Of a DNA stretch of 64,000 bases, positions 22,090-52,106 are shown one piece after another. Origin of the DNA: Hydra vulgaris (Eukaryota; Cnidaria; Hydrozoa; Anthoathecata; Hydridae). The notes under the pieces were generated by a model that did no database searches, was not told the origin of the DNA, and saw only the letters and a list, made by a program, of their open reading frames with translations. The position numbers and the translations under genes were made by a program. Every line of letters begins with the position of its first letter. Position 1 is the first letter of the stretch. The stretch lies in contig NC_088922.1 of NCBI RefSeq assembly GCF_038396675.1, forward strand, positions 17,197,501 through 17,261,500, in the 5' to 3' direction.

Positions 22090-25000
22090 ATGTTCTTATC
22101 AATCAGATTGTTTGTTTATTTTTTCTATGCATCATGTTTAGAAATTGAAAAGGTAGACTTGATTTTTGTTAATATGTATATTTAAATAATACATTTTTTT
22201 GCTATTACGCTTTAAGATTATTAAAATAATTTATTTTTTATAGAATGATGAGAGCCGATTTCATACTTTCCTTTATGCAGAAGACATTCACTCTTCCAGA
22301 ATTAGAAAAGATATTGAAAGGCAGAAGTTACCTGTCAACAAAGACCAAATAAAAGAAATGCTTTCTGAATATGCACATATTATGTATCAGAAATCTGAAA
22401 AAGGTAGTTGCTAACTACTTTTTCATTTCTACTTATTTTAAATTAGTTATTTGAAACAAACGGATTATTTTAAACCATAGGAACTCTCACTCAATAACAC
22501 AAACTAAATATCTGAATCAAAAAGTAAGGAAATAGATCTCAATATGGTCAGCTCTCAGATAAAATCACAAAAAAAAAACTGTTAATAAAAAAAAAAAAAT
22601 ACTTGAATACGGATCGTTTTAAACTGTTAAATACCTTTTAACAATTTAGGGGAAAGGCGCCTATGATGGCATACCAGTCATATTTCCATTAAAATTGGTT
22701 TTGGTAAAAAAATGATTAGACCTACATGAATATACTGACTTTACATTAGTTTTAGTGAAAAAATGTCCCTTGTGCACAAATATTGTTTTTATAATCAACA
22801 AAAATCGATTTTGGGATGTGCTGTTCTAGTTTTATTTCCTTCATATATTTAAGATTGTGATTTTACTATTAACTGTGCAGAAATGAAATTTTCATGCATT
22901 TTATATTCAAGTTTTGTGCATTTAGTGGAATAGTTACTTTAATTTTATCTTTTGAACAAAGCAGACACAGCTTTTTTTAATGAAAATGATGACTTTTACC
23001 TATGATGGCATACTGACGAGTTGGGGGTGTTGAAATATTGACGAGTTGGGAAAACCTTTTTTTTTTATAAGAAAAACTTATTTTTAAGTAAAGTTAAAAG
23101 AAAGCGATGCTCCAACATTTTTTTTTGGTCAAAAAAATACGTAAAACGCAATATATCCTATGCGCATGCGCAAAATTTTACAATGCTGGTGTGTAGCATG
23201 AAATGGTAAATTAGGATGGTTTCTAGTAATTTCTGACTTTTCTGAGGGAAGACTCTAAGGTTAAATGAAATCATTAAGTTACCCTCGATCCTAACTAGCC
23301 CCATCCTCCCCTATGCCATCATAGGAGCAGTGGTTGCCTATGATGGCATACTTGTGCTTTTTTTTACAATGAGAATAACTTATAAAAAAAATAAAACTGA
23401 TAAAAACTCCCAAGGTAATTATTGTTCTAGATGTAACAAGGAATGTATCCATATCAAAACTTTTATTATTGGTCTTCAGGATACTGAATAATGAAGCTTC
23501 AAAGTTAAGTATGCCATCATAGGCGCCTTTCCCCTATATTCTATGTTATACAAAATGACGTTTTTTTCATAATACCAGTAATACTAAAACTACATTTTTT
23601 CGATACAGTTAATTAAAAAAAGTAAAATTAATTAAAAAAAACTTTTGATATATTGTCAAATTATTTTATTAAATTTAGAAAATATGCTTTTTTATACTCT
23701 ATGTTCTATTAAATACTCTGTTTTATTAAAACCATGCATGTTTTGAACAAAACATAGAATATTTACGGAATTATCATCAAAGCTATTTTTTTTTGTTTAA
23801 AAACAAGCTCCTAAACGGATCATCTTGAATTAAACATATCATCTTGAATTAAACGTATATAGGTTTTAGGTTAATAAATTTGCTCACGTTACTTTCCTAT
23901 TCACCTTTTTAAGATGTAATTGAAAACTTGAAAGTTGTACATAAGAAATCGTAAGGTGTAATTGAGAAGATAAAAGTTGTAATTGAGAAAAGTTTATAAT
24001 ATAAAGGCAATTGTGGTTTTGGCGGTAACTACACCTCTTCCAATGAAATTTAAATTTTCGCTGCGGACCCAATTGTATGCTGTCTTATATTTGACACCTA
24101 AAGTTTGCGCCAGAGTTACCCAATCGTCATTTCGCTTAGCACATTCAATAACTCTTCTTCTATCATTCGATGAAGATAAAACATAATGTTTTCTTTCAAC
24201 TTGTTCAGTTGTATGTATTTCATATCTACAAACTGGACAAGGTGGTTCTGGTTATTCCAGAAGTGGATGTAAACAAATTTGGTGATATAAATGCTTGCAC
24301 GGATTCAATTTAATAACAGACTTTCTGTTCATAGTGTATTGACAAATAACACAACGATCTTTCAACTCCATTACTGTATTGCTGGTGCATACAAATGCTA
24401 AACTTGATATTATTAACTTATTAAAATGCATATCCAAGAATATTTTTTATAATGACCTTTAAGCTTGCATTGTGAATTTGCAATTACAAATAATGTATTC
24501 TCATTTACATATTACGATTTCTTAATTATAACTTTTGTTTTTCAAATAACATATTGCGATTTCATATTTACATGTTGGGTTTTTCAATTACATTTTAAAA
24601 TTTCTTAATTACATGTTGTGTTTCTTAATTACATATTGAGACTTCTGAATTACATGTTGTGTTTCTCAATTACATTTTACTTTTCTTAATAACAACTTTC
24701 AAGTTCTCAATTACATCTTGAAAAGATGTAGTTCAATTTTTTGTTACCTCTTTATATTAATACTGAACTTAGTAGTAGTAGTAGTAGTAGTAGTAGTAGT
24801 AGTAGTAGTAGTAGTAGTAGTAGTAGTAGTAGTAGTAGTAGTAGTAGTAGTAGTAGTAGTAGTAGTAATGCCCTTTCGAACGTGGTTAACACGGAACTCT
24901 TGGCAGCCATTGCAAACGAGGTAATGGCGAGAAAGAATCGCATCACTTTTTTTTAATAAGAAAATGTGAATAAAAGTATATTCAAATATCTAACTTTTGT

Positions 25001-50500: not shown

Positions 50501-52106
50501 CCAGTTCAAATCCTATTACTAATATACTATTTTCATATATTTATATAACTATTATTGTTTAGGATTTTGGCGTCCTGTTTTTATGGCTCCAACAGACGGT
50601 GAAAAAACTATTAATAATAACAAACCTGTGTGGAGTGAAACAAAAGTTCTTCCAAAAATGGAATCATTAAATAGCGGTAATCAAAATAGGTGCTATACAA
50701 TTATCTTTTAAAAATGTGAAAAGTGATGCGAGGATTTCCAAAATTGGCTTTCAAAGCCTTGCTTCTTCTTCTTCTTTTTCTTCTTCTTCTTCGAGGCAAA
50801 CAACTTCAAAAAAACAATTTTTACACATCAATATTTGATTTAAGTTATAACTGAAGTTTATAATTATTACTCGTACATTATTTTTATATACTTGCATTAC
50901 AACTTATCTTTAGATTTATGGAATCCCTCGTATATGACGTCAGACTATAATAAAAATACCGTTACTTATATTAAGCCTAAGTTAAGTGAAACTTCTTATG
51001 AAACTCAAGGTATTAATCAAGGTAAGTATTATTAAATTATCTTTGAACAATGCAAAATATATTGCTATTGTTTCTAGGGGCAAATAAAAAAAATTTTATT
51101 CGCATAAGTTTAACAAAACTTGTGTAGGTAAAAAAACTGGCAAAAAAAATTAAAACAAGACATTGTCTATCTTAAATTTAACAACTTAAACAGAGACAAA
51201 GTTGCGAAAAAAAAACATATACAAGTAGATTTCGGTCGAACAAGATTCTGTTTTTTTATGACTTTTTTTTTTCCTTTTTGAATCACCGGTTCCGTTTTTT
51301 ATTAGTTCACTTTTATGCAGATTTTCGCTCCTGTAAGTTTTTGCAACTAATTCACAGGTTTGTAGTTACGTCTCTGTTCGCACCTGTCTGTTTTCAGTTT
51401 AAAAAAACTCACTGTTTGCCATCTATTCTAAAAAAAAATTCAATAGACTAATTTTTTATCTTCGGAATTGTTTTACATATTTACCTTCCCAAGATCGAAT
51501 AACAACATCAATCAAGATGCTACTCTTTCAATTGAGAAGGGAACTATCGAGACGGTTACTCATAATTTATTTGATTACATGAGTTGCCTCCTCAACTAAC
51601 CACAGCTAAATAGTTTTAAAATTAAACCCTATGTAAAAAGCTTTTGAGCGGAGAAATAAGTTGTGCCTAGTACTAGTTAGTCACTGATAACGGACTGGTT
51701 AGGGACCTGCTTTATCAACACTTCGTAAGCAAGTGTGATTTTATATGTAAACTTAGTTTTGCTGTAGTTTTTACTATGATTTCACTTTGTGCTATAACTT
51801 TTTTATTAACTTCTTTATTTCACATTAAATATAATTTTAGAAAATGACGCTTACTTTCCTCACAACAAATACAAAAACAATAAATTTATTTATGGCGATG
51901 TTTTTGGAAAAAATATGCAGCCTACATCGGATGTCAATAAGTTACCTATCGAACTTAACAGCAAAAGTAAAAAAGTAACTGATGACAAATACACCCCAAG
52001 CGGAGATTTTAATGTACCAAGCGGACAATATACTCAAATAAGAGAAAAACGGTCCACCAAGTTTGCTAAAAAAAGTAAAATAAACAAGCGTCACAAAGTT
52101 ATTTAA
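44519..52106 (+). CDS. Gene C: putative secreted protein, 8 exons with repeated Trp-rich exons
   Basis: Exons are 44519-44602, 47307-47463, 49161-49283, 49818-49940, 50186-50308, 50563-50685, 50914-51021 and 51841-52106 (ATG at 44519, TAA at 52104). The total is 1107 nt, 368 residues, with all phases consistent (0 after exon 1, then 1 throughout). Exon 1 is a signal peptide ([16 protein letters not shown]) ending CLPINHE, which aligns with SMPIDYK of gene B. Exon 2 has [15 protein letters not shown], matching gene A. Exon 3 has RSKR then [11 protein letters not shown], matching gene A exon 5. Exons 4 to 6 are each 123 nt and encode F-W-R-P-(A/V)-F...SET...NQ repeats. Exon 7 is a shorter relative (LWNPSYM...LSETSYETQ). 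Exon 8 ends with REKR and a basic tail ([17 protein letters not shown]). The donor of exon 6 reads AT instead of GT, so this exon may be skipped, leaving 327 residues in frame. The function is unknown. Confidence 0.72.
44560..45400. other. Gene C intron 1, first part: inverted repeats
   Basis: CACAAAGTTTGTTTT/AACAAACTTTG (44687-44738) and three interleaved AAGAAAGTTAAA/TTTAACTTTCTT arms (45107-45200) form hairpins. Nothing else was recognised. Confidence 0.5.
45401..45512. repeat. (AT)n tract, 112 bp
   Basis: Pure AT dinucleotide in gene C intron 1. Confidence 0.99.
45513..46382. other. A+T-rich intron DNA
   Basis: A palindrome around ATGTGTACAATATATTATATTGTATACAT (about 45920-45950) is visible. 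Nothing else was recognised. Confidence 0.4.
46383..46580 (+). mobile_element. tRNA-derived SINE
   Basis: An A-box-like GTAGCATAATGCTTTTGCC (46401) and a good B box GGTTCAAACCCC (46438-46449) have tRNA spacing. A body of about 100 bases follows, with a stem (GGTTCTCGAATAAGACC) and GCTTCTTGGAGCACCTAAAT, and a TAAAATAAAG tail. It is transcribed in the same direction as gene C and sits in its first intron. Confidence 0.75.
46717..46781. repeat. Three copies of ATACGTTATATGTNTTACA
   Basis: Irregularly spaced direct repeats of about 19-27 bases. Confidence 0.8.
47640..47873. repeat. (AT)n tract, 234 bp
   Basis: The longest AT tract in the window. It marks the 5' truncation point of the adjacent LINE. 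Poly-Tyr-Ile frames across it are artefacts. Confidence 0.99.
47874..49158 (+). pseudogene. 5'-truncated LINE reverse transcriptase in gene C intron 2
   Basis: The RT domain is readable in sequence. It starts with [15 protein letters not shown] at the AT tract, followed by [53 protein letters not shown] (motif A, with FDTVDH), [19 protein letters not shown] (motif B), [13 protein letters not shown] (motif C, with TDD in place of ADD), then the thumb and C-terminal region ([38 protein letters not shown]). Stops interrupt it at several points. It matches CR1/L2-type non-LTR elements. Its 3' UTR and tail are missing, and the coding text runs almost to the acceptor of gene C exon 3 at 49160. Confidence 0.85.
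50030..50182. repeat. AATAAT/ATTATT inverted microsatellite in gene C intron 4
   Basis: AATAATAATA-type repeats, a short AT run and TATTATTATT-type repeats form a low-complexity palindrome just before exon 5. Confidence 0.85.

Follow-up and report, generated by a model that had tools for sequence, protein, structure and literature searches.

A small protein family in Hydra vulgaris, probably secreted and without a recognised domain

The window, meaning the whole 64,000-nucleotide stretch of DNA analysed here, corresponds to positions 17197501-17261500 of contig NC_088922.1 (C3 below) in the Hydra vulgaris assembly GCF_038396675.1. It contains three genes, A, B and C, which share an exon plan with a fourth gene, D, found on the same contig about 24.6 Mb from the window. 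An earlier note on this DNA had described a family of paralogous secreted proteins with no named domain. This description held in its main lines: the genes are paralogous, their products are probably secreted, and Pfam and PDB searches found no named domain. The number of genes, given as three, had to be raised to at least four. Whole-genome searches covered 911.5 Mb in 15 contigs.

Exon models of the four genes

In the common plan, exon 1 is hydrophobic (phase 0) and exon 2 short and variable (phase 0 to 1). The plan continues with a cysteine-poor pair of exons, the alpha+beta module (phase 1 to 1), which is used zero, one or two times and precedes a gene-specific C-terminal part. The five peptides quoted by the earlier note are present in the window in the frames described, and each of its exon sets opens, as it had claimed, with a hydrophobic exon that closes in phase 0, after which comes an exon running from phase 0 to phase 1; the hydrophobic exons end at a GT donor. 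The paralogues are partly clustered: A, B and C lie within about 30 kb of one another, and the phases of the four genes agree. B and C are arranged head to head, with start codons 2,386 bases apart. The D module was located near 41.887 Mb of C3, where 60 kb were fetched. The exons are listed by window position, except for those of D, which are given by contig position.

22090..22152, + strand: A exon 1, hydrophobic start, phase 0 out
22244..22403, + strand: A exon 2, phase 0 to 1
32765..32945, + strand: A alpha exon, phase 1 to 2
33019..33173, + strand: A beta exon, phase 2 to 1
33288..33421, + strand: A last exon, contains RSRR, with likeness to C exon 3
42061..42132, - strand: B exon 1, hydrophobic start, with likeness to D exon 1
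41585..41729, - strand: B exon 2, phase 0 to 1; its only likeness, a weak one, is to D exon 2
40554..40737, - strand: B first alpha exon
40286..40440, - strand: B first beta exon
39151..39334, - strand: B second alpha exon
38907..39061, - strand: B second beta exon
38231..38317, - strand: B optional exon, 87 nt, phase 1 to 1, proposed from splice signals only
37437..37717, - strand: B last exon, with likeness to D last exon
44519..44602, + strand: C exon 1, hydrophobic start
47307..47463, + strand: C exon 2, phase 0 to 1
49161..49283, + strand: C exon 3, RSKR, phase 1 to 1
49818..49940, + strand: C exon 4, FWRP repeat 1, phase 1 to 1
50186..50308, + strand: C exon 5, FWRP repeat 2, phase 1 to 1
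50563..50685, + strand: C exon 6, FWRP repeat 3, no GT at the homologous 3' end
50914..51021, + strand: C exon 7, divergent repeat (LWNPSYM), phase 1 to 1
51841..52106, + strand: C last exon (8), REKR and a basic 17-residue tail
C3:41899858-41899935, - strand: D exon 1
C3:41899479-41899662, - strand: D exon 2
C3:41887270-41887453, - strand: D alpha exon
C3:41886971-41887125, - strand: D beta exon
C3:41886008-41886150, - strand: D last exon

The coding sequence of A (693 nt, 230 residues, AG/GT at all junctions) reproduces exactly the length given previously, and that of D amounts to 744 nt (247 residues), with phases as in A and B. For B, a total of 1335 nt had been claimed; 1176 nt (391 residues) were obtained, or 1263 nt with the optional exon at 38231-38317. 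The B introns were screened for extra exons of phase 1-1, 60-330 nt in length, with a GTA or GTG donor and a pyrimidine share of at least 0.5. The screen returned 12 candidates, several of them overlapping, and no single candidate or non-overlapping pair supplies the missing 159 nt. The exon at 38231-38317 was retained because it has the best acceptor; it has no relative elsewhere in the window region or the D region, where the best match had an E value (E) of 0.41.

The 1107 nt proposed for C depend on exon 6, which is 123 nt long and followed by ATAGGT, where no GT donor is present; the homologous place in exon 5 reads GTAGGT. Splicing at the GTGC four bases further on breaks the frame, and reading on through the exon ends the protein soon after. 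Leaving exon 6 out gives 984 nt, in frame and with a single final stop. The exon is probably skipped or truncating, judging from these splice sites, and the state of its donor may come from genuine decay, from a fault in the assembly or from an uncommon splice site. Internal stops are absent from A, B, D and from C with or without exon 6. The earlier note had remarked that its three totals were divisible by three and free of stops; this is weak evidence, because the exons were chosen that way. What carries weight is that separate copies are homologous and agree in their splice phases.

The two-exon module and the links between the genes

A self-comparison of the open stretches of the window revealed that the alpha and beta exons co-occur three times, once in A and twice in B. 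The module comprises an alpha exon of about 60 residues and a beta exon of 51 residues, with phase 1 on entry and exit and a phase 2 intron in between. Genome-wide, alpha occurs in four places (E up to 0.001) and beta in four (E up to 1), all of the latter in A, B and D. The FWRP exon of C has three places in the 911 Mb genome, all of them within C itself. These three counts are lower bounds by the search tool's own statement. With four alpha and four beta places in the whole genome, the module is therefore not a repeat. The three FWRP places likewise speak against a repeat. The module was not found in C: a profile search of both regions recovered the known four alpha and four beta exons and nothing else above threshold. 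The joined 144 kb around the window include 7,500 bases that read N, and the negative result for the C introns holds at the sensitivity of that profile.

Exon by exon, the protein sequences of the module copies are 49-76% alike. In six of six pairs the third codon positions have changed most and the nonsynonymous rate (dN) is lower than the synonymous rate (dS), with dN/dS of 0.22-0.44. Calculated per exon, alpha gives 0.12-0.40 and beta 0.24-0.55; six of the 12 dS values exceed 1 and can be taken only as rough. The two exons of the module also differ in their nearest neighbours. The two alpha copies of B group together in a fraction of 0.9975 of 2000 resamplings. For beta, the second copy of B is nearer to that of D, and the two B copies were nearer to each other in 0.0745 of the resamplings. 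This suggests an exchange of single exons, for which the beta result alone is not decisive. The description of the family as "rapidly shuffling" is thus borne out in part, in that B has the module twice, C has none and has multiplied an exon of its own, and the neighbours of alpha and beta differ. From average Chou-Fasman values and hydrophobic moments, the latter favouring a helix in four of five segments, the module may tentatively be described as mostly helical. Among the C repeats, two pairs have the larger value for dS (dN 0.15 against dS 0.32, and 0.19 against 0.35; 40 codons each).

Shuffle tests were used for the comparison of 18 exon pairs, with 5000 shuffles each and significance uncorrected for the 18 tests. 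Pairs are named here by gene and exon number. The scores of C2-D2, A2-D2, A5-C3 and C3-C4 were reached by none of the 5000 shuffles, followed by A2-C2 (1/5000), the last exons B7-D5 (2/5000), B1-D1 (6/5000) and A1-B1 (7/5000). Weaker pairs were B2-D2 (79), C3-C7 (162), C3-D5 (190) and A5-C7 (342, all per 5000). Not clearly above chance were A1-C1 (436), A2-B2 (522), B1-C1 (1194), A5-D5 (1463), A5-B7 (2293) and B2-C2 (3755). The likeness that had been noted between the second exons of A and C is thereby placed above chance (1/5000). The alignment proposed for the ends of the first exons stands for A with B (7/5000), and fails for C (436/5000 with A, 1194/5000 with B).

It is D that links all of these genes: its module recurs in A and B, its second exon resembles those of A and C, and its first and last exons resemble those of B. 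On these sequence comparisons, the family consists of A, B and D, united by the module, and of C, joined via exon 2 and the exon that carries RSKR and GFETSY. B and C were compared over exons 1 and 2, and C joins the family via A and D.

Genome-wide searches at E up to 10 gave a narrower picture. The A and B queries, which were run with the non-module exons of these genes, returned A only and B only, respectively. The C query, in which exon 4 was joined directly to exon 8 and exons 5 to 7 were left out, returned C, exon 2 of D (E 0.07) and two matches at E 1.3 and 5. The D query returned D, A and B together with three matches at E 6 to 10 (L037 to L039). The latter look unrelated; two frames of at least 150 residues occur there on the given strand, both in L039. 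No further member of the family was found genome-wide at E up to 10, and no new exon match below E 0.001 occurs within 40 kb of the window (7,500 bases unreadable) or in the 60 kb around D.

Signals, database comparisons and surroundings

In each of the four proteins, the 12-residue stretch of highest hydrophobicity starts between residues 1 and 7 and lies within the first 18 residues, as judged by hydropathy only, and the proteins are probably secreted. For C, hydropathy, cysteines and dibasic sites were scored over the first 203 residues (exons 1 to 5). RSRR in A and RSKR in C directly precede a shared motif, G-Y/F-ETSY-x-TL, and the last exon of C has REKR followed by a 17-residue tail with a charge of +7. 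Counting RXKR and RXRR together, there is one such site in A and two in C, and none in B or D. This arrangement suggests furin-type cleavage in A and C. Dibasic sites are scattered over A, B, D and the scored part of C, with no repeated peptide between them by inspection. Cysteines are few: three in A and one each in B, D and the 203 residues of C.

The second signal lies upstream of the genes. When the 300 bases preceding each of the four start codons were aligned, B, C and D proved to have a string in common, TTTT-W-R-TATGACGTCA-R-AT. It encloses a perfect cyclic AMP response element (CRE), TGACGTCA, which is present in three of the four genes, at -57 in B, -69 in C and -46 in D. The two strings in the window are as follows.

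42179..42197 (C3:17239679-17239697), - strand: B promoter string TTTTAATATGACGTCAGAT, CRE begins 57 bases before the ATG
44442..44460 (C3:17241942-17241960), + strand: C promoter string TTTTTGTATGACGTCAAAT, CRE begins 69 bases before the ATG

The 19-base string has five exact places in the 911 Mb genome, three of which are those of B, C and D, and a reversed control has none. In the two regions together (204 kb), TGACGTCA occurs six times, three of them in the promoters of B, C and D; the window has three occurrences, against 0.41 expected from its base composition. The third of these lies inside C exon 7 (50935-50942), where the flank TATATGACGTCAGA resembles the promoter string. The two other exact places of the string are on contig C15, and about 420 bases downstream were read at each. 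One of them (L056, C15:47136601-47137800) is followed after about 160 bases by an open frame beginning MKLFFKSRAKKHSEFLKGFG, which ends at GTAAG and is unlike the family by eye; the other (L057) has no evident gene in those 420 bases. A further pattern, which does not match the family's own promoter sites, was found in 44 genome places, mostly one repeated sequence with TGACTTCA, and was set aside as uninformative. Upstream of A there are two related stretches in inverted orientation, at 21835-21987 and 20587-20747, the nearer one about 100 bases from the A start.

Database searches gave no relatives. Nothing reached the Pfam cut-off for A, B, the whole of D, the D and second B modules or exons 1 to 5 of C, exons 6 to 8 being outside the scan; the best score was 17.8 bits, with the cut-off at 25.7. 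Weaker Pfam matches, among them DUF6650, Lipase_chap, Stork_head, PLATZ and HD_5, fell short of the cut-off and were rejected. PHROGs had no match for D, and the PDB sequences contained no credible relative of the module. The alpha profile matched PDB 6j98, 'P8', with E 0.0027 overall and 0.033 for the best stretch, over 39 charge-rich positions, and was rejected residue by residue, as was its match to PDB 3rio. For beta, 190 stretches in viral contigs and 119 in bacterial and archaeal (GTDB) genomes fitted the pattern, and none of either was confirmed. A literature search with six family peptides was without match, which is not proof that the genes are unpublished.

Stretches that resemble mobile elements, and repeats, also occur in the window. 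Intron 2 of C contains reverse-transcriptase-like open frames at 47931-49155 on the + strand, ending 5 bases before exon 3; of these, 48114-48278 scored 23.4 bits with RVT_1, below the cut-off, and 48310-48492 had no Pfam match. In gene order, this stretch occupies the place that the alpha+beta module has in A, B and D. A Mutator-like transposase lies at 57805-59380 on the + strand in two overlapping frames, the first with 158.6 bits to PF20700 and the second with 25 bits, under the cut-off of 26.5. Neighbouring open frames at 61937-63631 on the + strand resemble a long interspersed nuclear element (LINE); the scanned piece, 62741-63082, gave 21.3 bits with Exo_endo_phos, below the cut-off, and a tandem array of 73-base units (63531-63977) overlaps the end of these frames. 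Several open frames occupy a GC-richer stretch at 27779-29205 on the - strand, a mobile element by look only; the two tested had no Pfam match. A long array of GCACTTATGCCAGTT-like units extends over 35796-36362, with a change of strand near 36080.

Readings of the family and comparison with known systems

The reading favoured here, with a probability of about 0.5, is that A to D constitute a small, lineage-restricted family of secreted proteins, with at least four genes on one chromosome, whose precursors would be cut at furin-type sites in A and C. The proteins would enter the secretory pathway, and the alpha+beta module would act as a mostly helical binding domain or pro-domain. A furin-type enzyme would cut A and C at RSRR or RSKR and free the conserved G-Y/F-ETSY part, and C would also be cut after REKR, freeing its basic tail; B and D, which have no cleavage site, would act whole. 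CREB/ATF-type bZIP factors would activate B, C and D, possibly in response to injury. The shared promoter element is the most testable lead: from the string, B, C and D are predicted to be injury-responsive and to rise together after wounding, and A is not. A bolder version, which we consider very unlikely, is that the family represents a previously undescribed kind of secreted ligand precursor, CREB/ATF-driven and injury-responsive, in which paralogues have exchanged and doubled the helical two-exon module, and the conserved G-Y/F-ETSY peptide, set free from A and C by furin-type cleavage, signals between the cells of the polyp.

Several observations weigh against the favoured reading. Secretion is deduced from hydropathy, and the family is known here from the genome sequence alone. 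Cleavage sites of the RXKR/RXRR type occur in two of the four genes only, and A has no TGACGTCA in the 3000 bases upstream; an insertion upstream of its start could explain the missing CRE string. No exon was shown to be common to B and C (exon 2 at 3755/5000, exon 1 at 1194/5000). Genome-wide, the A query did not find C or D and the B query did not find D, even at E 10. The links therefore come from local comparisons, single short exons being weak at genome scale. One of five segments does not favour a helix, and the helical content was derived from Chou-Fasman averages and moments. Finally, C carries an exon (6) that lacks its donor, and its repeats in exons 4 and 5 have a dN of 0.19 above a dS of 0.07 (40 codons).

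The proteins might also be uncut, extracellular structural parts, such as those of the glycocalyx, the egg coat or the wall or matrix of the nematocyst, with the module and the FWRP repeats as building blocks and the RXKR sites as incidental. The repeated modules of B and C, the charged C-terminal parts and the absence of RXKR from B and D would fit such a role. In A and C the RXKR sites occupy matching positions ahead of a conserved motif, cysteines are few, and no matrix domain was found at the Pfam cut-off, all of which argue against it and leave this a less likely alternative. Another candidate function is that of antimicrobial peptide (AMP) precursors like the periculins and arminins, in which cleavage after REKR would release the active part, the basic tail of C. 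It draws on the charge of +7 in the last 17 residues of C and on the organisation of the Hydra AMP genes, which, in the sections of PMC10945409 drawn on here, are lineage-restricted clustered paralogues made as precursors. Inspection of the models of A, B and D revealed no such tail, and the complex cysteine pattern that these sections describe is absent, A having three cysteines and B and D one each, so that an antimicrobial role is unlikely.

The exons could, lastly, be remains of mobile elements or decaying pseudogenes, as might be suspected from the reverse-transcriptase-like stretch in C intron 2 and from the lost donor of C exon 6. This is very improbable, given that only four beta, four alpha and three FWRP places (lower bounds) exist in 911 Mb, that dN is below dS in all six module pairs, that internal stops are absent, and that no transposon family matched A, B, D or the first 203 residues of C at the cut-off. 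If the models of the favoured secreted family hold, a regenerating animal gains one more family without a recognised domain among its secreted, lineage-restricted genes, and module gain and loss can be seen exon by exon in four paralogues of one chromosome.

In neuropeptide precursors, a short peptide recurs with basic cleavage sites on either side. The family resembles cnidarian precursors of this kind in its hydrophobic start and in the basic cleavage sites of A and C. It differs from them in that there is no series of short peptide copies with basic flanks, and the repeats of C are not separated by RXKR.

A closer counterpart in organisation is Hym301, a Hydra-restricted small secreted family with four genes in H. 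magnipapillata on one exon plan. Two of these genes lie within 70 kb, and the proteins consist of a signal peptide and a relatively conserved region followed by a highly diverged C-terminal part (PMC2586386). As described in the sections of that paper used here, Hym301 is a small family of secreted proteins with a shared exon plan and partial clustering, and A to D resemble it as a small, probably secreted family of this organisation. The Hym301 proteins have 87-106 residues encoded by four exons, whereas A to D have 230 to about 390 residues and 5 to 8 exons, and differ further by their repeated two-exon module; this comparison was made by description.

The Hydra AMPs are characterised in the corresponding sections of PMC10945409 by a complex cysteine pattern, a bipartite charge distribution and signal-peptide precursors. 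A to D are like the periculins and arminins in being clustered paralogues, probably made as precursors with a signal peptide, and in the basic tail of C. They are unlike them, again by description, in the absence of a complex cysteine pattern, in the restriction of the basic tail to C and in the long two-exon module. Taken together with what these sources describe, A to D are a real, small orphan family of probably secreted proteins, in an animal for which lineage-restricted families, namely Hym301, the periculins and the arminins, are already well known.

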